From Fervidobacterium pennivorans (GTDB lineage Bacteria > Thermotogota > Thermotogae > Thermotogales > Fervidobacteriaceae), in assembly GCF_001644665.1 (NCBI RefSeq), contig NZ_CP011393.1, forward strand, positions 1,820,001-1,884,000: a stretch of 64,000 nucleotides of DNA, in the 5' to 3' direction. Every line of letters starts with the position of its first letter. The stretch's first letter is position 1. The notes beneath the pieces were generated by a model that made no database searches, was not told the origin of the DNA, and saw only the letters and a program-made list of their open reading frames with translations. Positions 6,414 through 57,031 of the stretch are shown one piece after another. Both the position numbers and the translations under genes were made by a program.

Positions 6414-7058
6414 ATGGACTCTGAAAACAGGAAAGTAACTGTTCTTCTCACCGGCTTTGAACCTTTTGGAGGTGAAAAAGTCAATCCGAGTATGCAAATT
6501 GTAAAAAGACTATCAAAAAAGCACTTTCAAAATATACATATTGAAACATTGATACTGCCTGTCAGTTACGAGAAAAGTACGAAAGTGCTTGAAGAGTATT
6601 ACAAGAATCATTATGTAGACTTTGTACTGCATTTGGGGCAAGCCGGTGGAACTTCTGCGATAAGAATTGAAAGAGTTGCGATAAATTTACTCGACTCAAG
6701 ACATCCCGACAATGACGGACAGATAAAGAGAGAAACTCCCATCTTAGAGAACGGTCCTGACGGATATATGACACGTATCAATGTAAGGGAAATCGCTAAT
6801 TTTCTAAATGCAAAAAAAATACCAGCTTTTGTTTCTTACACAGCGGGTCAGTATATTTGCAATGAGGTCTATTACTACTCACTCCACTATTCTAGAACTT
6901 TTGGTATACCAAAATACGTGCTATTTATACACCTTCCTTTTTTACCTGAGCAAGTAGCAATTAAAGAGGGCAAGAAGGAAAATTTACCTTCTATGTCGCT
7001 TGAATTACAGACGAGGGCTATCAGATTACTATTGGAAAACTTGGAGCGTTTCATCTGA
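6414..7058 (+). CDS. pcp: Pyroglutamyl-peptidase I (pyrrolidone carboxyl peptidase)
   Basis: 214 residues, normal for this C15 cysteine peptidase, which removes N-terminal pyroglutamate from peptides in the cytoplasm. LLTGFEPFGG near the N terminus is the family signature. The catalytic triad is visible as Glu86 (in IRIERVAINL), Cys149 (in GQYICNEVYY) and His173 (in FIHLPFLP). It starts at ATG 6414 with GGGAGGGG upstream. It has its own promoter and ends 12 bases before the convergent phosphatase gene. Confidence 0.95.
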   Translation: MDSENRKVTVLLTGFEPFGGEKVNPSMQIVKRLSKKHFQNIHIETLILPVSYEKSTKVLEEYYKNHYVDFVLHLGQAGGTSAIRIERVAINLLDSRHPDNDGQIKRETPILENGPDGYMTRINVREIANFLNAKKIPAFVSYTAGQYICNEVYYYSLHYSRTFGIPKYVLFIHLPFLPEQVAIKEGKKENLPSMSLELQTRAIRLLLENLERFI

Positions 7059-7069
7059 TTTTGCAGGCT

Positions 7070-8428
7070 TTACTTGAATATTTTCACACATTCAACATCA
7101 TCAAAGCTCATCGTTATACTCATGGGAAGTTTTCTCAAAATTCGTCCAATTTCAACATTTTTGGTCACTACTGACCAGTATCTCTCGTGGTCATTAATCA
7201 AGAGAGTATAGTTATCTCCACTTGCACTCAGAACAATTTCGTTCACTAATTCTTTCATCTTTTGGTCTAAAAGTATTGTCTCGTACTTCGAGTTCTCTGA
7301 ATAGTAATTTAGCCCCAATGTACGTCCAAAAGCAACAAATGAATAGTCATCAGGCAAATCTGAATATCGCTTTTTGAGAGCACTGGCCACTGCAAACGGC
7401 AAAGCTTCAGGCATTATCCCAGAAATCTCTTTGTTTAGAAAGTCAAGTAATAGCCGCATAGAGTCCTCCGAAGACCTTGTTCGCTCGAATATGGAATACA
7501 AACCGTCTGAGTACGCAATAAATGTGAGACCATTTTGTAGTTCAAATTTCCCGCAGTCCTCACTAGTATATGTGTAATCCAAAAGTCCAATAGGAAAAAC
7601 CGATTTCAACGTCATTTGAGTGAATGTTTCCCCATCGTAAGTTATCAAAGAAGGATGGCCACAATTAATATACTCAACTTCGTTACCAGTTATTTTTAGG
7701 AAAAGTCCAGTAACATAGTTATACCCTGAGACTGTTTTCATACTTTCTTGAAGCTCGTTAACTATATCCGATATTCGCAGATTTCTCTGCGCAGCTGAAC
7801 GTATAACGGACTTCACTGCAGAACACAAGAGAGCTGATTGAATACCATGTCCCGATATGTCTGCAGTGTAAAGGTAAACATCTTCATTAACGGTGAAGTA
7901 ATCATAAATGTCGCCACCCACTATTTGTGAGGGCATGTATTTCGATGTTATCCAAATTCCATTACAAGCCTGAACTGGTTCTGGCAGCATCAATGTTTGA
8001 AGTAAACTGGCAAGATTGAGGCTGTCTCGAAGTTCCTTGTATAAATTTTCTATTTTCTCCCTGTTCTTTTTGAGTTCGATGTGTAAGGCTATTTTCGATA
8101 TAAGTTCCACATCGATAATTGGTAACTCGATATAGTCCGAGATACCTATTTGGTATAATTCCAACAATGTGACGTAATTCTTCTCTTCAATTATCACAAT
8201 AACGGGCAAGTCCTTTATTTCACCAGTTGTCTTAATATACCTAACGACATCTTGTGCATTTCTAAGTAACCGATAATAAACAAGAATAAGTTGAGCACCT
8301 GCTTTTTTCAAAATTGTGCTAACATCTGAGACAATCCTCACATCATAACCAACAAACTGCAGCAACTCCGCTGTTTCTTGTACAACATCGGGACTGTCTG
8401 TTAGGATTACTACACTATCACTTGGCAT
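7070..8428 (-). CDS. PP2C-type (SpoIIE/RsbU) serine phosphatase with N-terminal pseudo-receiver
   Basis: 452 residues from ATG 8428, supported by AGGGAG about 8 bases upstream (a GTG at 8437 overlaps that SD). Residues 1-125 have the fold pattern of a response-regulator receiver, but where the phosphorylatable Asp is expected the strand reads LILVYYRLL, with Tyr. A short coiled coil leads to a SpoIIE phosphatase domain with metal-binding acidic residues in GGDIYD, DISGHG, YSDGLY and DDYSF. About 90 further residues at the C terminus are not recognised. Such proteins dephosphorylate anti-sigma-antagonist type partners; none is encoded nearby. The gene diverges from the GH4 gene. Confidence 0.88.
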   Translation of the reverse strand: MPSDSVVILTDSPDVVQETAELLQFVGYDVRIVSDVSTILKKAGAQLILVYYRLLRNAQDVVRYIKTTGEIKDLPVIVIIEEKNYVTLLELYQIGISDYIELPIIDVELISKIALHIELKKNREKIENLYKELRDSLNLASLLQTLMLPEPVQACNGIWITSKYMPSQIVGGDIYDYFTVNEDVYLYTADISGHGIQSALLCSAVKSVIRSAAQRNLRISDIVNELQESMKTVSGYNYVTGLFLKITGNEVEYINCGHPSLITYDGETFTQMTLKSVFPIGLLDYTYTSEDCGKFELQNGLTFIAYSDGLYSIFERTRSSEDSMRLLLDFLNKEISGIMPEALPFAVASALKKRYSDLPDDYSFVAFGRTLGLNYYSENSKYETILLDQKMKELVNEIVLSASGDNYTLLINDHERYWSVVTKNVEIGRILRKLPMSITMSFDDVECVKIFK

Positions 8429-8550
8429 CCCAGCCACTCCCTATATTCCATAATGATTTTTTGGCACTCTTTCCCGGTTTTTATTATACAATATCCTTTG
8501 AAAGAATTGATACTTCAATCTTTCAAATTACAAAAGAGGGGGCATTTCCT

Positions 8551-9960
8551 ATGAGCAACACAGGGCTAAGAGTGAGTATTATAGGCGCAGGGAGTGCGGT
8601 GTTTTCAATGAAAATTATATCGGATTTTTGTAAGGTTCCCAGTCTTTCAGACTCTCACATCGTGCTCATGGATATCGACAAAACACGAGTCGAAAATGTT
8701 CGGGTACTTGCAAAAGAACTGAGTCAATACTTCGGGGCAAAACTTACATTTGAGATTGCCGATACCATCAAAGGTGCTGTTGAGGGTTCCGACTTTGTTA
8801 TAAACACAGCTATGGCCGGAGGACATGGTTATCTGGACCTTGTTAGGTCTATTGGTGAAAAACATGGTTATTATCGCGGAATAGATGCCCAGAACTACAA
8901 TTTTGTTTCCGATTATCTCAACCTCACGAATTGGAATCAAATGACTTTGTTTTTGAAGATAGCTAGAACAATTGAAAAATATGCTCCAAAAGCTTGGTAT
9001 CTCCAGGCTGCTAACCCTGTCTTGGAAGGTACAACTCTTGTCTCTACACAAACTGGAATAAAAATGGTCGGATTTTGTCATGGGCACTATGGAGTAGAGG
9101 CTCTCGCAAAGTTCTTAGGGGTTTCGGAATACGAATGGCAAGTCGGTGGAGTAAACCATGGAATTTGGTTGACAAAGTTCACAACAAAAGAAGGTAAAAA
9201 CCTTTACGAAGAAATCGAAAAAGTATCTCAGCGCATTAAATATGAGGAATTTAAACCTTCCAATCCTTTTGATGACCAGCTTTCACCGGTTGCTTGGGAA
9301 ATGTATAAAACTTATGGTTTGTTCCCAGTAGGGGATACTGTTAGAAATTCAACATGGAAATACCACAGAAATCTTGAAACGAAAATAAAGTGGTATGGAG
9401 CTCCATGGGGTGGGGCTGATTCGGAAATAGGGTGGAAATGGTATGTGGACCAGTTATCGCAAGTTGTTAATGTAATAGATATGTTTGCAAAAATGTTACT
9501 TAGTGGAGTAAAAATAAATCAGCTAAAAACTGGAACTCCTATCGACGATTATCTAAAAGAGATACTAAGTGAAAAGTTGAGCGGTGAGCAACACGTACCA
9601 TTTATAAAAAGTGTTGTCACTAAAACACCAGGAAGATTTGTTGTAAACGTTTTAAACAACGGCAAAATTAAGAACCTTGATAACGACGTGGCAGTAGAAA
9701 TCTGCGCTAAGGTATGCGGTGAGAAGTTTGAGTTTGAAGAGAATCACATTCCAGAACGAATTGTGAACTGGTATTTAAAACCAAGAATATTACTTGCAAA
9801 ACAAGCTTTAGATGCGTTCTTAAGCAAAGATGTTAAACTAATAGCTGATATTTTAGAGAGGGATCCAAGAACAAAAAACAGTGAGCAAGTGGAGAAACTG
9901 ATATCCGAACTTTACCCGATAGTAATCAAAAAGGCAAAGGAAATAGAAGAACAAGAGTAA
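8551..9960 (+). CDS. Glycoside hydrolase family 4 enzyme (alpha-glucosidase/alpha-glucuronidase type)
   Basis: 469 residues from ATG 8551, with GAGGGGG 8 bases upstream. The N-terminal NAD-binding GAGSAVFS and the metal-binding Cys-His pair in CHGHYG (Cys176) mark GH4. These enzymes cleave glycosides by an NAD+- and Mn2+-dependent oxidation-elimination route in the cytoplasm. The CHGH form of the motif suggests the alpha-glucuronidase-like subgroup of Thermotoga (TM0752) rather than phospho-glycosidases, which I infer only from memory of the family. NWNQ, INTAMAGG and GGVNHGIW are further typical stretches. No sugar transporter is adjacent, and the gene ends in a shared terminator. Confidence 0.9.
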   Translation: MSNTGLRVSIIGAGSAVFSMKIISDFCKVPSLSDSHIVLMDIDKTRVENVRVLAKELSQYFGAKLTFEIADTIKGAVEGSDFVINTAMAGGHGYLDLVRSIGEKHGYYRGIDAQNYNFVSDYLNLTNWNQMTLFLKIARTIEKYAPKAWYLQAANPVLEGTTLVSTQTGIKMVGFCHGHYGVEALAKFLGVSEYEWQVGGVNHGIWLTKFTTKEGKNLYEEIEKVSQRIKYEEFKPSNPFDDQLSPVAWEMYKTYGLFPVGDTVRNSTWKYHRNLETKIKWYGAPWGGADSEIGWKWYVDQLSQVVNVIDMFAKMLLSGVKINQLKTGTPIDDYLKEILSEKLSGEQHVPFIKSVVTKTPGRFVVNVLNNGKIKNLDNDVAVEICAKVCGEKFEFEENHIPERIVNWYLKPRILLAKQALDAFLSKDVKLIADILERDPRTKNSEQVEKLISELYPIVIKKAKEIEEQE

Positions 9961-9984
9961 CTAACTTGCGAGCAAGTATTGAAA

Positions 9985-10009
9985 AAGGCTGGGAAAAAAT
10001 CCCAGCCTT
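9985..10009. terminator. Bidirectional terminator between the GH4 gene and recN
   Basis: A 10-bp stem (AAGGCTGGGA with TCCCAGCCTT) closes a short A-rich loop. T-rich sequence follows on the plus strand and A/T-rich sequence on the minus strand, so it can serve both convergent genes. It overlaps the stop codon of recN. Confidence 0.85.
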
Positions 10010-11540
10010 ATTTTTCTTTAGCATTACTTAAATCTCCAATAATTTCTATAACCTCTTTTCCACCCAGCATTCTCTCAATTTCTTCCATTCGCCCCTTTTC
10101 ATCTAATTCTACCACCTGACCTGTATCCCCCATCCTGCGTAAAGACAAATGCTTGCTTGCTTTCAAAGCAATCTGAGGCAAGTGGGTTACAACTATCACT
10201 TGATGTTTTTTCGAAAGTTCACTCAGTTTCTGAGCTAATTTTACAGCAGTTACCCCACCTATTCCAGCATCAATTTCGTCGTATACCAGCACATCGGTAC
10301 TGGCCATACTGAGTTCCAACGCAAGCATCAAACGTGATAATTCACCACCAGAAGCTATCTTTCGCAATGGATATAGCGGGCCATCGGAGAGCGTACTTCC
10401 AACAAGTTCAACCTCGTCTATTCCGTTTCTTAACATTGTTTTTTCATAGAAGGAAAAATCTATCCTTGCATTCATATTCAAATCTTTCAAATGTTCGGAA
10501 ATCGCTTTTATAATTTTTCTCGCAGCATCTTTTCTTTTTTCACTTATCTGAAGTGCTAAGTCACGCAGTTCGTTTTCCAATCGCTGACGTTCTTTTTCCG
10601 CGTTTTCTAAGATTTCAACTGTCTTTTCAATAATCCTTATTTCCTCGGACCACTTTTTCAAGTTTGTCAGCACATCTTCCGTTGTTGGACCATATTTCCT
10701 ACGCAATTTCTTATAAACCCACAACCTGTTTTCAACTTCTTCAAGATTTATATCCTCTATCTTAGCCAATTCTTTGCCAATTCTATTGTTAAGCTCTGCT
10801 ATCGATTCCATAGCATTGTCCAGTAAATCGTGATATTTATCCTCTATCAGTGAATAAACTCTCCTAATGGCGTATTCTATCTCTTCCAGTTGTTGGGAAG
10901 CAATGCTATAGTTTTGGACAAGCGTTTGCATGTTAAGTGCCCTTTTGTATTTTTCTTCGAGTTCTTGCTCTTCGTCTTCACTTAGATTCGCGTTCACTAT
11001 TTCGTCAACTCTTTCCTTTAGTTCTTCAAGTTTTTTCGACTCTGTAGCTTTGTCCGTGGTAGCGATAATTCTAACAACCTGTTGGTATTCATCGTAAAGC
11101 TTTTGGTAGTTCTCAAGTATTTTTGAGTTTCCAGCTACTTCATCCAGTATCTCAAGGATAAAATCTCTGTCTAACAACTTCATATGTGAGTTTTGCTTAT
11201 GGATAGTTATGAGACTTGAGAGGATGTTTTGGACTTGTTCACGGTTAACCAATCGACCGTCTATTTTGTAAAATAATCTCTTGTTTTTTCGCTCAACACT
11301 GAACACGTGTTGACCTTTTTTAATCCCAAGCTCATTGAAGTCTATACGAAGGTTCACAACCATATCTGCCGAGAAGGTCTCACTACGGATGTTCTGATAG
11401 TCCAAAAACGAACCAATCACGTCGAGAATTAAGCTTTTCCCAGTTCCTGTTTCGCCAGTTATTACGTTGAGGCCTTCTGAGAGATATATATCCACATTCT
11501 TTAAATAAACATATTCATTGATGTGTATTAATTCAATCAA
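10008..11540 (-). CDS. recN: DNA repair ATPase RecN
   Basis: 510 residues; SMC-like organisation. The Walker A GETGTGKS is at residues 29-36, and long charged coiled-coil arms occupy about 150-350. The C-terminal ATPase lobe has the SGGELSRLMLALE signature, Walker B VLVYDEIDAGIGG and VVTHLPQIA. RecN holds broken DNA ends together during recombinational repair. The start is TTG 11540 behind GAGGTGAG. It lies just downstream of cdd in the same direction. Confidence 0.95.
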   Translation of the reverse strand: MIELIHINEYVYLKNVDIYLSEGLNVITGETGTGKSLILDVIGSFLDYQNIRSETFSADMVVNLRIDFNELGIKKGQHVFSVERKNKRLFYKIDGRLVNREQVQNILSSLITIHKQNSHMKLLDRDFILEILDEVAGNSKILENYQKLYDEYQQVVRIIATTDKATESKKLEELKERVDEIVNANLSEDEEQELEEKYKRALNMQTLVQNYSIASQQLEEIEYAIRRVYSLIEDKYHDLLDNAMESIAELNNRIGKELAKIEDINLEEVENRLWVYKKLRRKYGPTTEDVLTNLKKWSEEIRIIEKTVEILENAEKERQRLENELRDLALQISEKRKDAARKIIKAISEHLKDLNMNARIDFSFYEKTMLRNGIDEVELVGSTLSDGPLYPLRKIASGGELSRLMLALELSMASTDVLVYDEIDAGIGGVTAVKLAQKLSELSKKHQVIVVTHLPQIALKASKHLSLRRMGDTGQVVELDEKGRMEEIERMLGGKEVIEIIGDLSNAKEK

Positions 11541-49230: not shown

Positions 49231-49331
49231 GATAGATCTCCTTTCTAAGCTGCCAATTTTCTGTTGAACAATATTATGAATTGTACCAAGTCTAATTGTA
49301 TATTTAAGTTTACAAATTGTCAATAATTGTA

Positions 49332-49340
49332 TGATATAAT
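49332..49340 (+). promoter_or_regulatory. Extended -10 box before the GT2 operon
   Basis: TGATATAAT (TATAAT at 49335-49340), 50 bases before the GT2 start. No convincing -35 at 16-18 bases; an extended -10 promoter can work without one. Confidence 0.5.
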
Positions 49341-49389
49341 AAGCTCACAAAACAATATGAAGAGTCAGCACTCAGGAGGAGGGGATTTT

Positions 49390-50478
49390 TTGAAATATAT
49401 TATTTTCGTCACTTTTGTTTTGATTTCTCTATCATATATATACTATGCAAAGAAAAGGATTTTGCATTCCAAGAAAAGTTTATCCGATGTGCATCATTTA
49501 ACAGAGAATCCTAAAATTTCTGTAATAATACCTGCAAGAAATGAAGAAAAAAACCTTTCAAAACTTTTGCCGCTTGTTATAAACCAATCTTTGAAACCTT
49601 TCGAAATAATCGTTGTTGATGACAACTCCACTGATGGAACGTTTTCCGTTGCAAGAAGTTTTCCTGAGGTAACCGTTATAAGACTAACAGAAGAACCTCC
49701 AAAAGGTTGGGTCGGAAAATCGTGGGCTATATGGAACGGATATCTGAATTCTTCTGGAGAATACCTTCTTTTTCTTGATGCCGACGTCGAACCAAGCAAT
49801 GAATTAATTCAGTCACTTTTTCTACGTCAAAAGGAATATGGTGGCTTAATATCAGTATGGCCATATCAACGTTTTGAAAAATTTTATGAGCACTTGACTT
49901 TGCCTTTTAACATAATGATTGTTTACGCAAGTAATAACTTGGGATTTCCAAATAAAGTACCTTCTGGCGCATTCGGTCCGACGATTTTTACATCAAGACG
50001 TGATTACGAAATCACGGGAGGGCATCAAGCAATAAAAGATAGTGTTTTAGAAGATATTAAGCTCGGTAAGTTATATATTAATCATGGTATCAAAGTTACA
50101 AACTTTCTTGGAAACCATACCATAAAGTTTAGAATGTATCCATCGGGATTTAAGCAACTTTTTGAAGGTTTTTCAAAGAACATGTCTCCTGGTGCTACAA
50201 TTGGTGGACTTTTTTCGTTTCTTTTGTCACTTATCTTTATGGCTGGCATTTATTCATCGTTCACTTCAGTTTTTACCTTAGATGGAGTGGTGCGCTATTT
50301 AACGGTTGCTCTGATTATATACATTATGGCAAAACCAACAGGTGATTACAAATGGTTTGATGCGCTTTTTTACCCTTTGCATTATATCTTTTTCTTAATT
50401 GTGTTTTTTAATTCACTTTACTTAACAATATTCAAAAAGCAAGTATATTGGAAAGGGAGGAAAATAGATGTTAGTTGA
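49390..50478 (+). CDS. Family 2 glycosyltransferase, CrtQ-like
   Basis: 362 residues from TTG 49390 behind AGGAGGAGGGG. One N-terminal membrane helix, then a GT2 domain (ISVIIPARNEEKNL, EIIVVDDNSTDGTF, PKGWVGKSWAIWNGY, LLFLDADVEP, SVWPYQ) and a LEDIKLGK motif, ending with three or four membrane helices. The PKGWVGKSWA stretch is typical of the 4,4'-diaponeurosporenoate glycosyltransferase (CrtQ) and related hydroxy-carotenoid or lipid glycosyltransferases. It opens an operon with a PlsY-like acyltransferase and, after an IS, oxidative enzymes. The acceptor is probably an isoprenoid or lipid acid or alcohol; this is inference. Confidence 0.85.
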   Translation: MKYIIFVTFVLISLSYIYYAKKRILHSKKSLSDVHHLTENPKISVIIPARNEEKNLSKLLPLVINQSLKPFEIIVVDDNSTDGTFSVARSFPEVTVIRLTEEPPKGWVGKSWAIWNGYLNSSGEYLLFLDADVEPSNELIQSLFLRQKEYGGLISVWPYQRFEKFYEHLTLPFNIMIVYASNNLGFPNKVPSGAFGPTIFTSRRDYEITGGHQAIKDSVLEDIKLGKLYINHGIKVTNFLGNHTIKFRMYPSGFKQLFEGFSKNMSPGATIGGLFSFLLSLIFMAGIYSSFTSVFTLDGVVRYLTVALIIYIMAKPTGDYKWFDALFYPLHYIFFLIVFFNSLYLTIFKKQVYWKGRKIDVS

Positions 50479-51121
50479 TAGTTTGATTGTCTATATTTTG
50501 ATTGTCGCACTCCAGTTTTTCTCTGGAAGTATTATGTATTCTTATATAATTGCTAAATTACTCAATTTCGATTTGAGAAAAGTAAGAGATGGCAATCCAG
50601 GCTCTTCTAATCTCTGGAGAGTAGCTGGTTGGAAGTGGGGATTTTTAGCGCTTTTACTCGATTATTTAAAAGGAACATTACCACTTGCGATATTTGTTGG
50701 TATTTATGGACATTCATTAAATAAATTTGTTATTTCGATAGCAGCACTTTTTGGTATTCTTGGTCATGCATTTTCTCCAATGCTGAAATTCAAAGGCGGA
50801 AAGGCAATAGCAACATCCTTCGGAGCATGGTCTGTTCTAACGAAATGGGAAGCACCAACCTCGCTTGGCGGTGTTTTTACGATTTTTTCGATATACCGAA
50901 AGATTTCAAAGAAGAAATCCACAACTCCAGAAGAAGATGCACTAAGAGTTCTTCTGGGGTATTTTGTTCTTTTAATTTACGTTGTATGGAAAGTTTCTCA
51001 AGGCGCTCTAGAGTTAGTTATTCTATACTTTGGAAATGTGTTGGTTATACTTTATAAACACAAAAACGAGTTGTCTAATTTATTGCATCAATACAGAACA
51101 AAAAGGAGTGAAAGGGCATGA
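50468..51121 (+). CDS. PlsY-like acyltransferase
   Basis: 217 residues, five or more membrane helices. GNPGSSNLWRVAGWKWG and KFKGGKAIATSFGAW are the conserved cytoplasmic loops of PlsY, which moves acyl groups from acyl-phosphate to glycerol 3-phosphate. The start overlaps the GT2 gene by 11 bases and the stop overlaps the TPR gene by 4. A middle insertion (about 125-160, Lys- and Ser-rich) is unusual for PlsY. Placed between a CrtQ-like GT and redox enzymes, it may acylate a sugar lipid instead of, or in addition to, its usual role. Confidence 0.87.
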   Translation: MLVDSLIVYILIVALQFFSGSIMYSYIIAKLLNFDLRKVRDGNPGSSNLWRVAGWKWGFLALLLDYLKGTLPLAIFVGIYGHSLNKFVISIAALFGILGHAFSPMLKFKGGKAIATSFGAWSVLTKWEAPTSLGGVFTIFSIYRKISKKKSTTPEEDALRVLLGYFVLLIYVVWKVSQGALELVILYFGNVLVILYKHKNELSNLLHQYRTKRSERA

Positions 51122-51888
51122 AAACTCTAAAGTTAACTTTTATATTTCTGTTATCGAACATCTTTTGTCTTCCTTTATTCTCTCAGAACAGCAATTCAAC
51201 GAACAATATAGAATATTTTACTCAGAAATTCTTGAATACTCGGTCTTCGAAAAACATTGAAGAGTTGAAGAATTTGCTTAGTCTCTTAGAGAACGAAATC
51301 AAAAATAACTCTAATAAATCTTCTAACTATGTGAAAATTCGTACTCTGCTTTCAGAAGTGTATTTCGAATACGGTCAGCTACTCAACGATAATAAGCTCA
51401 AAGAAAGACATTACAACCTTGCGCTTCAAGAAGCAAAAGATATTATAAAAGCAGATCCTGAGAACGGCAAAGCCTACTTCATTGCAGCTATGTCATCAGC
51501 AGCACTTATAGATTTTGTAAATGTGTTTCAAAAACTTCAACTAATGAATGATTTTGATTTTTATATAGAAAGGGCAATAAAATACACACAAGATAACTTA
51601 GATAAAGCAATAGCATACATAGCCAAAGGTGTTAGATTCATGAATCCCCCTTGGCCATTTTAAGATTACAAAAAGGCAGAAGATAGTTTCAAAGAAGCTG
51701 AAAAATATGCGGCGAATTATTCCGGATTGTATCTGAACTGGGGACAACTCTATTTAAAAATGAATGATAAAAAGAAAGCGGAAGAAATGCTTAGGAAAGT
51801 GTTAACGATGGAACCGCATCCATTTTTCATAAAACAACATGAGGATAATGTGAAAATAGCCAAACAACTACTTGGATTGATTAAATGA
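51118..51888 (+). pseudogene. Secreted TPR-like protein interrupted by an in-frame TAA
   Basis: A signal peptide (LKLTFIFLLSNIFCLPLFS) and helical repeats are followed by TPR-like units (ALQEAKDIIKADPENGKAYF). The frame stops at TAA 51661-51663 after FMNPPWPF, then continues in the same frame for 74 residues (DYKKAEDSFKEAEKYAANY ... MEPHPFF) to TGA 51886-51888. The downstream part clearly continues the same TPR array, so a single nonsense mutation (for example AAA to TAA) has split the gene. ATG 51118 has AAGGAG upstream. Alternatively both halves are made, or the TAA is a sequencing error. Confidence 0.85.
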
Positions 51889-51899
51889 TTTGAAATAAG

Positions 51900-52958
51900 G
51901 ATAGTGTTAACTTGTAGTGATGAAAGAGTGTAAGTGTGAAAGAATGAGATTGATATTACCATTGTGCGTTTTCCAAAGATTCTTCACTACACAAAATACT
52001 TGAATATATTTCGCTAAATTCTTCGTATTCTTCAGCCCTCGCTTGAGTCGGAAAAAGTCTTTCAACAATGAAAACTTAGATTCACATTGATTGTTTTTAC
52101 CGAGCGGTACCACTACGTGATTGATATTTCTGAACAACAGCTTTACTGCACTTTCATATGCACCAAGTCCATCAGTAATAAGTTCAATGTTTCTAGGTTT
52201 TGAATTACCAAAGAACTTCTCGAGCAATACTTTGACTTGTCCCATATCACGATACTTTGAGACATGCCAACAAAGAATTAAGTTAGTTTCGTGATCAACT
52301 AATAGCCAAACATAGTACTTTTGTTCTTTGAACACAAGAACAGTTTCATCAGCATGAACTGAGAAAACATTTTCGATGGTAAATGTTGGAAAAAGTACAG
52401 AGAATAAAGTACACAATTTAATAACCCATTTATATATGGTGACATGAGATACTTTGATATTAAGAGAATGAGCAAGAGAGCGATAAGACATATTGTGTTT
52501 CATATACAAAACGAAAGCTTTTAAGATGAAAAATAGAGGAAAACGGAAATATTTAAATTTCTCAGGAATAAGGGTGACTGGTTCGGGGAGGTTAAAAGGT
52601 ACTCTATCTTTGGTACGACAAGCTCTACAACGGAAGACAACGAAAGAGCGACGGACTTTGTAAATTTGCATAGATTTACCACAAGAAGTGCATTTGGGAT
52701 AAGGGAAAGGGAAGTTTTTGCGTTTGTGAGAATGGGAAAGTTTGAAAGAATGATGGCAGAGTTTGCAAAGGAATTGTTGGTTACCGTATTTGTCATGACC
52801 GTTTTTGTATAAGCTGGTGGAACCGCATTTTGGACAAGAGAGCGTTGAGTTGTTCATATCGGGATACCTCCTTTGTCGAGAGTTGGTTGGGGGGTGTCCC
52901 CTCTTTATAAGGATAATGCGGTTTTTGGAAAGTTTCAATACTTTTAGTTAACATTATC
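51900..52958 (-). mobile_element. Insertion sequence of about 1.06 kb (IS6-like)
   Basis: Imperfect terminal inverted repeats: GATAGTGTTAAC from 51900 against the complement of GTTAACATTATC ending at 52958 (one mismatch in the first 12). One transposase gene fills the element. The 8-base flanks share only AAATA in register, so no clean target duplication is seen. It lies between the broken TPR gene and the Rieske gene, transcribed against them. Confidence 0.82.
51907..52857 (-). CDS. DDE transposase with N-terminal zinc ribbons (IS6-like)
   Basis: 316 residues from ATG 52857, with AGGAGG 9-10 bases upstream. Two Cys4 zinc ribbons (CPKCG ... CKLC and CTSCG ... CRAC) precede a helix-turn-helix-like part (YRSLAHSLNIKVSHVTIYKWV). 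The RNase-H-like catalytic domain has Asp170 (VHADETVL), Asp229 (ITDGLGAY) and Glu259 (NNQCESKFSLLKDF). The frame is intact, so the element may still be mobile. The stop codon lies inside the left inverted repeat. Confidence 0.88.
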   Translation of the reverse strand: MNNSTLSCPKCGSTSLYKNGHDKYGNQQFLCKLCHHSFKLSHSHKRKNFPFPYPKCTSCGKSMQIYKVRRSFVVFRCRACRTKDRVPFNLPEPVTLIPEKFKYFRFPLFFILKAFVLYMKHNMSYRSLAHSLNIKVSHVTIYKWVIKLCTLFSVLFPTFTIENVFSVHADETVLVFKEQKYYVWLLVDHETNLILCWHVSKYRDMGQVKVLLEKFFGNSKPRNIELITDGLGAYESAVKLLFRNINHVVVPLGKNNQCESKFSLLKDFFRLKRGLKNTKNLAKYIQVFCVVKNLWKTHNGNINLILSHLHSFITTS

Positions 52959-52981
52959 AAAATAGCAGGAGGGGAGCAGTT

Positions 52982-53965
52982 ATGATAAAAAACCAGTGGT
53001 ATGTTGTTATGTCTTCAAAAGAATTAAAAAAGGGACAGCTCATTGGAGTTACTCGGTTTGGTGAAAAACTTGCGATATGGCGTGATAAAGATGGTAAGGT
53101 CCATTGTATCTCTGATATCTGTTGTCACCGTGGAGCTTCTATATCCCATGGAAAGCTTCTCAACAACGGCGAAAGGGTTATGTGCCCATTCCATGGCTTT
53201 GAATATGATTCAACAGGTAGAGTTAAAACAATACCATCTAATGGAAGAACTGCACCTGTTCCCGAGAATTTTATTGTAAAATCATATCCGACGTATGAAT
53301 TAGCAGATTTCATATGGATATGGTATGGCGATAAAGAACCAACTCATAATCCGTCCTATTTTGATGATATTGATGACTCCTTGGCTTACACAGAATTTAG
53401 TGAAGTATGGAACGTCCACTATAGTAGGGCTATTGAAAATCAGCTCGACCCAATACATGTCCCATTTGTGCACTATAATACAATAGGAAGAGGTAACAGA
53501 ACAGTAGCTGATGGTCCAGTAGTAAGATGGATAAATGACACTATGTTTTATTTCTACGTATTTAATAGAGTTGAAGATGGAATACCTGCAAGAAAACCTG
53601 AAGAAATGAAAATTTCTGAAATGAGTAGTGTATACCTCGAGTTCAAATTTCCAAATATCTGGCAAAATCACATCGACGAAAAGCTTAGAGTAACTGCTGC
53701 ATTTGTTCCAGTGGACGAAGAACATACGAGGATATATATAAGGTTCTACGTTGGATTCACAGGAATAAGGTTTATTGATAAATTGATCTCCACTCTTGGA
53801 ACACCTTTCAATAAAAAGGTTCTCCACCAAGACAGAGCTGTTGTTGAAACTCAGATACCTAAAAAGTCTGAACTTAGAATGTCCGAAAACCTTATAACCG
53901 GGGATCTTCCAATACTTGAATATCGCAAAAAACGCGAACAGTTAAAGAGTGAAATTACAAAATAG
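52982..53965 (+). CDS. Rieske non-heme iron oxygenase, alpha-subunit type
   Basis: 327 residues, SD AGGAGGGG. The Rieske [2Fe-2S] domain has Cys47-x-His49 (CCHRGASISHG) and Cys68-x2-His71 (CPFHGFEYDSTG). The catalytic mononuclear iron site is visible as Asp156, His159 and His164 (ENQLDPIHVPFVH). Known members use O2 and electrons from a reductase to hydroxylate or demethylate aromatic, steroid or tetrapyrrole substrates. No reductase or separate ferredoxin is adjacent. It begins 23 bases after the IS and leads a run of four coupled genes. Confidence 0.92.
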   Translation: MIKNQWYVVMSSKELKKGQLIGVTRFGEKLAIWRDKDGKVHCISDICCHRGASISHGKLLNNGERVMCPFHGFEYDSTGRVKTIPSNGRTAPVPENFIVKSYPTYELADFIWIWYGDKEPTHNPSYFDDIDDSLAYTEFSEVWNVHYSRAIENQLDPIHVPFVHYNTIGRGNRTVADGPVVRWINDTMFYFYVFNRVEDGIPARKPEEMKISEMSSVYLEFKFPNIWQNHIDEKLRVTAAFVPVDEEHTRIYIRFYVGFTGIRFIDKLISTLGTPFNKKVLHQDRAVVETQIPKKSELRMSENLITGDLPILEYRKKREQLKSEITK

Positions 53966-53975
53966 GAGTGGTTTT

Positions 53976-54449
53976 ATGGAAAACACACCTTCAAATATCC
54001 AAGGTGCTATAGAATACTCAATAACATCTTTAGAACAGTTGCTCCAACTTTGGACAAAAACTTATAATCATGAGGGTAGACCGGATTGGTCTCATCTAAT
54101 TCCTTACTACGACGAGAATATACACTTTAGAGATTCGGTACAAGAGATCCATGGGATTGAACAATTCAAAGCTATGGTTGAGCGTTTGACAAAACGCTCT
54201 CAAGAATTGCACATGAATATATTAAATGCAGTAATGGAAGGGAATGTCATTTTCGTTGAATGGGATATGATTATCAATTTCAGAAAAACAAAGACTTCCG
54301 TTGTTCATGGTGCAAGTCGGCTTATTTTAAATGAAAAGGGAAAAATAATCGACCAAAGGGACTATTACGATCTTTGGGGTGACATTTTTGATAATATACC
54401 AGGTTTTGGTAAATTATACCGCAAATTCATGAAGAGGGTGTTTGGATGA
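53976..54449 (+). CDS. NTF2/SnoaL-like protein
   Basis: 157 residues from ATG 53976, with AGGAGTGG upstream, 10 bases after the Rieske stop. The cone-shaped NTF2-like fold is suggested by LIPYYDENIHFRDSVQEIHGIEQFKAMVERL and by alternating strands ending HGASRLILNEKGKIIDQRDYYDLW. Such folds include SnoaL cyclases, limonene-epoxide hydrolase and ketosteroid isomerase, often with a catalytic Asp; DQRDYYD could supply it. It may isomerise or hydrate the Rieske product. It overlaps the SDR gene by 4 bases. Confidence 0.8.
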   Translation: MENTPSNIQGAIEYSITSLEQLLQLWTKTYNHEGRPDWSHLIPYYDENIHFRDSVQEIHGIEQFKAMVERLTKRSQELHMNILNAVMEGNVIFVEWDMIINFRKTKTSVVHGASRLILNEKGKIIDQRDYYDLWGDIFDNIPGFGKLYRKFMKRVFG

Positions 54450-55435
54450 AAGATTTCAAGGGTTGTTCTGTAAGAAGGTACTGGTTTCAATACAAGTGGT
54501 CAAATATCTTTGAGATGATACGGGACATGTCAGGTAAACCCAAGACATGTTCAGAGCGGTTTGACGGAAGACTGGTTGTTATAACAGGGGCAACATCCGG
54601 TATTGGATATGAGACAGCAAAAAAGTACGCTTCAAATGGTGCAAGGTTATTAACAATAAACCGAAACAAAGAAAAATCGGAAACCCTGTGCCGAGAAATA
54701 TCGCATCGTTACGGGACAGAGTGCAATTACATCCTTGCGGACTTGAGCAAACTGAAAGATGTTAAGAACGTTGTAGAGAAATTGAACTCTCTAAATTCGA
54801 GAATAGCTGTTCTTATTCATAACGCCGGTTTATATTTAAACAAGCGAACACTCACAGAAGATGGACTTGAAATGAATTTTGTTGTCCATTATCTTGCTCC
54901 ATTTATTATCAACTATTTCTTAATCGACAAACTTAAAAGAGATGGTTCCACGAGAATAATATTTGTAAGTTCAGAAGGATACAGATTCGCATCTTGGGGT
55001 ATTTGTTTGGATAACCTCCAGTGGGAGAAAAAGAAATACTCAGGTTTGAAAGCTTACGGTTCGGCAAAGCTTGCTCAGATATTGAGTATGCACATATTCG
55101 CCGAGATTTTCTCTTCCGAAAACATGAACGTGACAATAAATGCTATGCATCCAGGTTTTGTGAAAACAAATACCGGTCAAGACAATGGACCCGTGTACAA
55201 ATTCTTCAAGAAGAACTTCTTAGATAAACTGTCCCGAGATCCGGTCGAGTCAGCAGAAGCGCTTTATTATCTTGGTGTTTCAAAAGACGTTGAAAGTATA
55301 ACTGATAAATTTTTTCATTATACTACAATTGAAGAACTCGCACCTCCAGCAAAAGATATGGAATTAGCAAAAATGTTGTGGGAGAAAACTTTGAGAATAA
55401 TTAGCGAGAAGTATCTAAACTTGGAGGTGAAATAG
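54446..55435 (+). CDS. Short-chain dehydrogenase/reductase
   Basis: 329 residues. After a 40-residue N-terminal extension comes TGATSGIG (47-54) for NAD(P) binding, NAG (126-128), a catalytic Ser in VSSEG, and Tyr204-x3-Lys208 (YGSAK). The C-terminal part resembles the retinol-dehydrogenase/protochlorophyllide-reductase-like group (NFVVHYLAPFIINYFL; MHPGFVKTNT). It would interconvert a hydroxyl and a carbonyl group on a hydrophobic substrate. Overlaps the NTF2-like gene (ATGA) and abuts the FAD gene. Confidence 0.9.
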   Translation: MKDFKGCSVRRYWFQYKWSNIFEMIRDMSGKPKTCSERFDGRLVVITGATSGIGYETAKKYASNGARLLTINRNKEKSETLCREISHRYGTECNYILADLSKLKDVKNVVEKLNSLNSRIAVLIHNAGLYLNKRTLTEDGLEMNFVVHYLAPFIINYFLIDKLKRDGSTRIIFVSSEGYRFASWGICLDNLQWEKKKYSGLKAYGSAKLAQILSMHIFAEIFSSENMNVTINAMHPGFVKTNTGQDNGPVYKFFKKNFLDKLSRDPVESAEALYYLGVSKDVESITDKFFHYTTIEELAPPAKDMELAKMLWEKTLRIISEKYLNLEVK

Positions 55436-57031
55436 GTGAAGGGTAAAAAGAGAATAGTAATAGTAGGTGGTGGTATCGCTGGTCTCACTGCAGCAGTATA
55501 CCTTGCAAGAAGAGGGCACAAAGTGAAACTATTTGAAAAATACGAAAAATGCGGTGGACTTGTTAATACCTTTGAATACGAAGGTTTTAAACTCGAAGGT
55601 GGAGCCAGGGCACTTGTTAATGCAGGTGTTATAAAGCCCATGATAGAAGACCTTAAACTGGACATCGATATTCTACCAAACCCCGTGTCAGTTGGAGTAG
55701 AAGCCAAGATACTGAGAGTTCGTGGAGAAGAAAGCCTTAACGATTATGCTCGTCTTCTGAAAGAGCTTTATCCGGAATCGGAACATGATGTAGATAATTT
55801 GATAAAGGTTGAGAAAGAAATACTCGAATACATGAAAATTCTCTATGGTGTTGATAATCCGCTATTCTCGTTTAACAAGATAAAGGAAGAAGGTAAACTT
55901 GCCGAGATGTTACCAAGATATTTTCTTTGGTTCTTTAAATTCTTGAAAACCGTCAAGAAAATTAACGAACTTAAGGAACCGATAGAAGTCTATATATCGA
56001 AAATTGTCAAAAACCGTTCTCTGAGGGATATAGTAATACAACACTTCTTCCGCGGTACACCTTCATTCTTTGCTTTAAGTTATTTCTACCTCTATGCTGA
56101 CTACATATATCCAAAAGGTGGCGTAGGTGTTTTACCACAAAAGCTTACTGAAAAAATTACTGAACTTGGCGGAGAAGTATATACAAATACTTCTATCGTC
56201 AAAATCATTCCTTCCAAAAACACGGTGATTGATGAAAAAGGGAATTCCTATGAATACGATGCGATGATTTGGGCAACTGACTTGAAAACATTCTACAAAA
56301 TTCTTGACACGGAAGGACTTTTTGGCACCACATTGAATAAAATTGAAAACGAAAAGAAGAAAGTGTTGTCATCTAAAGGTGCAGAGTCTGTTCTGACAAT
56401 CTTCTTCGGTGTTGACGAACCACCCGAGACATTCGAAAAGATATCCACAGGACATCTCTTCTACACGCCATCGAAAGAGGGCCTTGGAGAAATTAATAGG
56501 TCTTGGCTAAGGAAAATAACAGAAAATTATGAAAACACAAGCAAAGAAGAAATACTTAAGTGGCTTGAAGATTTTATAAAGTACAATACATACGAAATCT
56601 CAATACCGGCTTTAAGAGACAAATCAATGGCTCCGAATGGGAAAACAGGATTGATTGTTAGCGTCTTATTCGACTACGAAATTGTGAAAAAGATACACGA
56701 AGATGGATGGTACGATGAATTCAAATCTCACGCAGAAAATTTAATGATTAAAAATCTAAAAGAAGCTATTTATCCTTTCTTAGAGGAAAAAATTATCTTC
56801 AAGTTCACATCAACACCACTAACGCTCGAAAGGATGTACAATACATCAGAAGGTTCAATTGTTGGCTGGTCTTTTGAAGAACAAATTCCTGTACCATCAG
56901 GAATGTTCAGTTTGAAGGGCGCTATAAAAACTCCGATAGGCAACATCTACAAAGCAGGAAAATGGGCATACGCCCCTGCTGGTGTACCAACTGCTATCAT
57001 CACTGGGAAACTCGCGGCAGATATGATTTAA
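55436..57031 (+). CDS. CrtI/CrtISO-like FAD-dependent oxidoreductase
   Basis: 531 residues from GTG 55436 (SD GGAGGTGA, overlapping the end of the SDR gene). VIVGGGIAGLTAAVYLARRGHKV is the FAD/ADP-binding fold. KCGGLVNTFEYEGFKLEGGARAL and YPKGGVGVLPQKLTEKI are typical of phytoene desaturases, carotenoid isomerase and retinol saturase, and the C-terminal GKWAYAPAGVPTAIITGKLAA closes the FAD domain. It probably desaturates, saturates or isomerises a polyene or polyprenyl chain. No phytoene synthase gene is in the window. Confidence 0.88.
   Translation: MKGKKRIVIVGGGIAGLTAAVYLARRGHKVKLFEKYEKCGGLVNTFEYEGFKLEGGARALVNAGVIKPMIEDLKLDIDILPNPVSVGVEAKILRVRGEESLNDYARLLKELYPESEHDVDNLIKVEKEILEYMKILYGVDNPLFSFNKIKEEGKLAEMLPRYFLWFFKFLKTVKKINELKEPIEVYISKIVKNRSLRDIVIQHFFRGTPSFFALSYFYLYADYIYPKGGVGVLPQKLTEKITELGGEVYTNTSIVKIIPSKNTVIDEKGNSYEYDAMIWATDLKTFYKILDTEGLFGTTLNKIENEKKKVLSSKGAESVLTIFFGVDEPPETFEKISTGHLFYTPSKEGLGEINRSWLRKITENYENTSKEEILKWLEDFIKYNTYEISIPALRDKSMAPNGKTGLIVSVLFDYEIVKKIHEDGWYDEFKSHAENLMIKNLKEAIYPFLEEKIIFKFTSTPLTLERMYNTSEGSIVGWSFEEQIPVPSGMFSLKGAIKTPIGNIYKAGKWAYAPAGVPTAIITGKLAADMI

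Follow-up and report, generated by a model that had tools for sequence, protein, structure and literature searches.

Rieske non-heme iron oxygenases need O2 and are textbook markers of aerobic metabolism, which raises the question of what one of them might be doing in Fervidobacterium pennivorans, an anaerobe. We analysed a stretch of 64,000 nucleotides from the genome of this bacterium (hereafter the window), in which a preliminary description based on the sequence alone had noticed such a gene and had left three options for it: activity at trace O2, use of another oxidant, or a non-oxygenase reaction. The best explanation as a whole, to which we assign a probability of about one half, is a true oxygenase that oxidises a lipid-like substrate when O2 is present in traces or transiently and receives electrons from general low-potential carriers. 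The preliminary description overlooked that the gene belongs to a conserved set with SnoaL, SDR, CrtI-like, GT2 and PlsY-like genes, which is laid out in the window as follows.

49327-50478, + strand: GT2 glycosyltransferase (HpnB/CruG-like), in the upstream half of the conserved gene set
50468-51121, + strand: PlsY-like acyltransferase (Pfam G3P_acyltransf, 6.3e-36)
51118-51663, + strand: TPR-type protein gene with a premature in-frame stop (TAA); homology continues to about 51888
51900-52959, - strand: IS6-like insertion sequence (transposase 51907-52938; Pfam DDE_Tnp_IS240, 6.6e-46)
52982-53965, + strand: Rieske non-heme iron oxygenase alpha subunit, Rieske [2Fe-2S] plus VanA_C-type catalytic domain, 327 aa
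53949-54449, + strand: SnoaL/NTF2-like protein (Pfam SnoaL_2, 7.4e-12); true start probably the ATG at 53976
54446-55435, + strand: short-chain dehydrogenase/reductase, SDR (Pfam adh_short, 7.1e-28); 4-base overlap with the SnoaL gene
55436-57031, + strand: CrtI/phytoene-desaturase-like FAD enzyme (NCBIfam crtI_fam, 7.8e-27, below the curated cut-off)

The order is GT2, PlsY-like, TPR gene, IS6-like element, Rieske, SnoaL, SDR and CrtI-like, the last four forming a tight run of partly overlapping genes. The IS6-like element, bounded by near-perfect 13-base inverted ends (GATAGTGTTAACT and GATAATGTTAACT), is inserted just upstream of the Rieske gene and splits the set into two halves. A transposase of the same family lies at the same position in one relative (L022). 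An ICMT/PEMT-like gene, absent in the window, adjoins the TPR gene at five other loci (L022, L023, L026, L028 and L034). A PHROGs search gave no match.

As for the Rieske protein itself, the observation that the ORF encodes an intact alpha subunit is confirmed. The gene starts with ATG, immediately preceded by a purine-rich ribosome-binding site (aggagggg), and its product matches the Pfam Rieske (PF00355, 2e-27) and VanA_C (PF19112, 5.7e-14) domains, which span the whole length. Both ligand pairs of the [2Fe-2S] cluster that had been reported as intact are present (C47-x-H49 and C68-x2-H71), and this 2C2H set is kept in 98/98 untruncated sequences of the clade described below, the sole exception being one truncated sequence. 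The iron site read earlier as D-x2-H-x4-H is also intact (D156-x2-H159-x4-H164), but that reading missed the third iron ligand, the C-terminal D284. By homology and from what is known of the family, we take D156 to be the bridging Asp, and H159, H164 and D284 to be the 2-His-1-carboxylate ligands of the mononuclear iron; all four residues are invariant in 99 of the 99 clade sequences. The AlphaFold2 model shows the two-domain fold (pLDDT 92.9, pTM 0.90), and the nearest PDB folds found by Foldseek are the Rieske oxygenases SxtT/GxtA (E 5e-24), dicamba monooxygenase and NdmA, with 20-22% identity and TM-scores of about 0.8. The catalytic domain is strongly conserved beyond the metal ligands. 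Since the alpha-subunit family is defined by fold and ligands, the protein is by these features a member, for which O2-dependent oxygenation is predicted. With the bridging Asp and every metal ligand retained across the clade, the oxygenase chemistry appears to be under selection, and since the active site is unchanged, this is most likely still an oxygen-activating enzyme.

An oxygenase in an anaerobe is a real paradox. The host was already presumed to be anaerobic, which is supported by a genome (99.98% complete) in which no heme-copper oxidase was found. The paradox is, however, not unique to this gene, a point missed earlier, since a whole clade of such genes occurs mainly in anaerobes. 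Scanning one genome per species yielded over 505 relatives. Identity is 48-74% for the best 80 of these, and clade members stand at 45-60%. The hosts of these best 80 are Anaerolineae and other Chloroflexota, Clostridia (Acetobacterium, Clostridium frigoris and psychrophilum, Fusibacter, Acidaminobacter), Lachnospiraceae, Atopobiaceae, Spirochaetota, WOR-3, a few Bacteroidota and, among archaea, Lokiarchaeota. The 80 loci were picked by similarity to Thermotogota proteins; that anaerobes predominate among the hosts draws also on three surveys at phylum or class level. The clade gene is carried by 13/391 genomes of Clostridia and 8/350 of Chloroflexota. The Actinomycetota survey is bimodal, with three of 396 genomes at E < 1e-100 followed by a gap down to 1e-35, and one of the three carriers is an Atopobiaceae genome, with whose protein those of the other two group. 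Over the full length, no plasmid-borne Rieske enzyme exceeds 29% identity; the hosts of these plasmids are mostly aerobic or facultative. The comparison with aerobic and anaerobic homologues that the preliminary description had proposed places the protein in a clade of its own, split from the sampled aerobic enzymes with support 97/93 and with the window protein within a Thermotogota group, although long outgroup branches limit inference on the root. Neither bd nor heme-copper terminal oxidase was found in 24 of 30 carrier genomes, some of them drafts that may miss genes; six carriers have an oxidase (bd in 5/30, heme-copper in 5/30). The Rieske gene belongs to a clade whose hosts are mainly anaerobic lineages (Anaerolineae, acetogens and other Clostridia, Spirochaetota, Lokiarchaeota), possibly with aerobes inside it. 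Separately, Thermotoga has a second Rieske paralogue (L035, L036, L124), 53% identical, sister to a WOR-3 sequence and in a different neighbourhood.

Outside Thermotogota, the Rieske gene is mostly solitary, and a search there for a common neighbour gave mostly diverse genes. The informative neighbours of clade members nevertheless point to oxygen or light stress. MsrA/MsrB genes lie near the Rieske gene at four Lokiarchaeota loci (L084, L106, L108, L109), desulfoferrodoxin and rubrerythrin adjoin it at a Spirochaetota locus, hemerythrin does so at three Clostridium loci, and its neighbours in Anaerolineae include photolyase, MerR-B12 (CarH-like) regulators, heliorhodopsin and Staygreen. With fixed seeds, stress-gene matches numbered 13 within 3 kb of the Rieske gene and none in 740 kb farther out, the seeds having been picked after inspection of the neighbourhoods and the 13 matches amounting to about three independent lineages. 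When 138 near and 140 far genes were scanned with Pfam, a less biased approach, the commonest near families included MsrB (4), hemerythrin (3), DUF1731-epimerase (3) and photolyase (2), none of which is among the commonest far families. A conserved 93-aa zinc-ribbon protein is also encoded near the Rieske gene at three of the four Lokiarchaeota loci. Thermotoga maritima, which has this protein family, consumes O2 and both tolerates and grows at 0.5% O2 (PMC3065215), so a Thermotogota enzyme that uses O2 is not implausible. Among the three options left by the preliminary description, genomic context therefore seems to lean to O2 exposure.

The other two options come together in the proposal that in vivo the enzyme dispenses with molecular oxygen and relies on H2O2, another oxidant or a non-oxygenase reaction evolved by the anaerobe clade. 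The wide spread among anaerobe lineages, including the 24 carriers without both oxidase types, speaks for it, as does a clade signature mostly missing in the sampled aerobic enzymes (N153-Q154-L155-D156, W227, N229, R236, R254), which suggests one conserved reaction. So does the fact that the genes found most often beside clade members include none for the usual redox partners. A peroxide shunt using H2O2 is known in vitro for Rieske dioxygenases. The proposal must be set against an unchanged O2-type active site and against neighbours that indicate oxygen or light stress, and we know of no member of the Rieske oxygenases whose physiological reaction is independent of O2. We regard the proposal as unlikely, if worth taking seriously. 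Its boldest form, in which the clade would comprise the first O2-independent enzymes of the Rieske oxygenase fold, with a peroxide-driven or new redox reaction fed by electrons from the ferredoxin/flavodoxin pool, is a speculation that we would not expect to hold.

The same stress genes could be read in another way, with the protein acting mainly as a scavenger of O2 or reactive oxygen species that, like flavodiiron proteins or rubrerythrins, draws electrons from ferredoxin to reduce O2 or peroxide in uncoupled turnover, a substrate being only the trigger. This would fit a gene that stands alone in many anaerobes and that rubrerythrin, desulfoferrodoxin, hemerythrin and Msr genes adjoin. However, Rieske oxygenases gate O2 activation by substrate. 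Moreover, a catalytic domain that is strongly conserved also at positions other than the ligands points, as does the Thermotogota operon, to a specific organic substrate. A scavenging role is improbable.

If the protein is a true oxygenase, it needs an electron donor. The preliminary description rightly stated that no reductase adjoins the gene, its neighbours being the IS transposase, SnoaL, SDR and CrtI-like flavoprotein. We found no dedicated reductase or ferredoxin partner elsewhere in the genome either: the sole protein combining PF00970 (FAD_binding_6) and PF00111 (Fer2), and hence the only candidate for a VanB-type reductase, is NqrF, assigned by its Nqr operon context beside NqrE and NqrD. 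Since partner genes of some known Rieske systems lie elsewhere in the genome, the absence of a dedicated reductase does not exclude alpha-subunit membership. The CrtI-like neighbour, listed as a possible partner in a 2017 survey (PMC5209329), is judged unlikely as a reductase, being of CrtI/amine-oxidase type with no iron-sulfur domain. At locus L040, the stop of the Rieske gene is overlapped by the next gene, which is flavodoxin-like by a weak match (E 4.6e-5) below the curated cut-off. The most economical donor would be the general pool of ferredoxin, flavodoxin or rubredoxin.

What the enzyme oxidises is suggested by its neighbours in Thermotogota. The Rieske/GT2/PlsY/SnoaL/SDR/CrtI set recurs in five Fervidobacterium genomes (the window, L021, L022, L023 and L025), all with the SnoaL-SDR order conserved downstream of the Rieske gene, and two further loci have the same set in a different order (L030, L033). 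PlsY adjoins GT2 across Thermotogota and in an Anaerolineae locus (L055), and at three loci the Rieske gene is paired with a tocopherol-cyclase-like gene (L037-L039). The fullest version, in another member of Thermotogota (L030), comprises a flavodoxin-ferredoxin protein and an MsrBA fusion, which head the operon, then GT2, PlsY, SnoaL, SDR, two CrtI-like genes, Rieske and a tocopherol-cyclase-like gene, with a rubrerythrin-like gene alongside. Beyond Thermotogota, Rieske-CrtI or Rieske-GT2/PlsY linkage occurs in Anaerolineae (L055, L072) and, loosely, in Spirochaetota (L059), and another Anaerolineae locus (L078) links the Rieske gene to GT2, CrtI-like and tocopherol-cyclase-like genes. At L055 (positions 6941-11135), the order Rieske, heliorhodopsin, Staygreen (Mg-dechelatase family), PlsY and GT2 is an odd mix of light, tetrapyrrole and lipid genes. 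At L024 (7338-8421; G031), a frameshift splits the GT2 gene while PlsY and Rieske are intact.

Given this linkage, the product is probably a decorated lipid. In our working model, the Rieske protein would be a functional monooxygenase-type alpha subunit, a homotrimer by homology, that takes electrons from ferredoxin, flavodoxin or rubredoxin rather than from a dedicated reductase and uses as oxidant the traces or short-lived supplies of O2 that may enter the cell. Its most likely substrate in Thermotogota is a lipid-like intermediate, a guess from the neighbours, which the CrtI-like flavoenzyme, the SDR and the SnoaL-like protein could process further before the GT2 and PlsY-like transferases join the product to sugar and acyl groups. 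The whole would amount to a modification of membrane lipids linked to exposure to oxygen, conceivably protective. Against an operon-based lipid reading, several Thermotogota keep the Rieske gene without the SnoaL, SDR and CrtI genes: two loci retain GT2 and PlsY (L026, L032), and on a short contig only PlsY is in view (L031). Because most members outside Thermotogota stand alone among diverse neighbours, lipid modification may not be general.

A more specific role in tailoring carotenoids or other terpenoids is suggested by the CrtI-like protein, whose nearest solved sequence is gamma-carotene desaturase 4rep, by the CruG/HpnB-like neighbour, and by a methylsterol monooxygenase as best NCBIfam match, albeit below its cut-off. 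A context of this kind is seen at L040 (9641-17990; G061, Thermotogota class), where true squalene/phytoene synthase, CruF-type PF04240, CrtI-like, GT2, tocopherol-cyclase-like and DUF92 genes lie beside the Rieske gene. Yet squalene/phytoene synthase (PF00494) is missing from the complete F. pennivorans genome, so the product here should not be a C30/C40 carotenoid, a hopanoid or a sterol, and a pathway of this kind is rejected for this organism. The synthase occurs in only 5/103 genomes of the class, only two of which carry the Rieske gene. We consider terpenoid tailoring quite improbable.

A decaying, horizontally acquired gene or a contaminant is barely credible, and for this genome already refuted save for recent loss of expression: the patchy distribution (23/103 genomes of the class), the broken adjacent TPR gene with its inserted IS, and a relative in Fervidobacteriaceae whose homologue appears broken by an in-frame TAA (L034, G009) are outweighed by an intact active site, a one-contig genome, presence in eight of nine Fervidobacterium genomes and purifying selection. 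The genome is a single contig of 2,061,852 bases with 0.05% contamination and exactly one PF00355 match, the gene discussed here. Genus homologues are 70-86% identical, with dN of 0.10-0.17 and saturated synonymous sites, which indicates strong purifying selection and argues that the ORF is not there by chance. Contamination, which the preliminary description had named as a finding that would overturn it, is thus excluded, and its view that the gene is no relic holds.

The presence of this clade in acetogens, Thermotogota, Anaerolineae and Lokiarchaeota means either that tailoring enzymes which consume O2 are retained by anaerobes for times of transient oxygen or that this fold can carry out a reaction independent of O2. 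Either reading matters for the practice of treating oxygenase genes as oxygen proxies and for understanding the survival of anaerobes in air. With thermophiles and cultured anaerobes as sources, the clade enzymes are open to direct assay. The individual gene was already catalogued: the 2017 survey lists as putative oxygenases homologues from F. pennivorans (AFG35170), Thermosipho africanus (ACJ75179), T. maritima (AAD36358 and AGL50271), several Thermotoga strains and Anaerolinea (BAJ63376), and names a phytoene-dehydrogenase-like protein (AFG35173, BAJ63379) as a possible partner (PMC5209329). The survey passages on these proteins discuss neither the oxygen paradox, nor a clade that extends across anaerobes, nor the operon as a set of lipid genes, and a search of open-licence papers found no description of the clade.

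Compared with known systems, the protein is built like VanA, dicamba O-demethylase (DdmC) and SxtT-GxtA, as a two-domain alpha subunit of ~330 aa with a 2C2H cluster, a bridging Asp and a 2-His-1-carboxylate site. Unlike these, it occurs in anaerobic hosts, forms its own clade and has no adjacent gene for a VanB or ferredoxin partner. It shares the VanA_C domain with vanillate O-demethylase (VanA), whose VanB partner was not found in the F. pennivorans genome. Its best NCBIfam match is the 4beta-methylsterol monooxygenase SdmA (NF052579; E 1e-25, residues 4-270), but it scores 90.5 bits against a cut-off of 600, and the genome has no sterol route because squalene synthase is missing. The fold and active site are the family's own, while host range, missing partner genes and gene set distinguish the clade.
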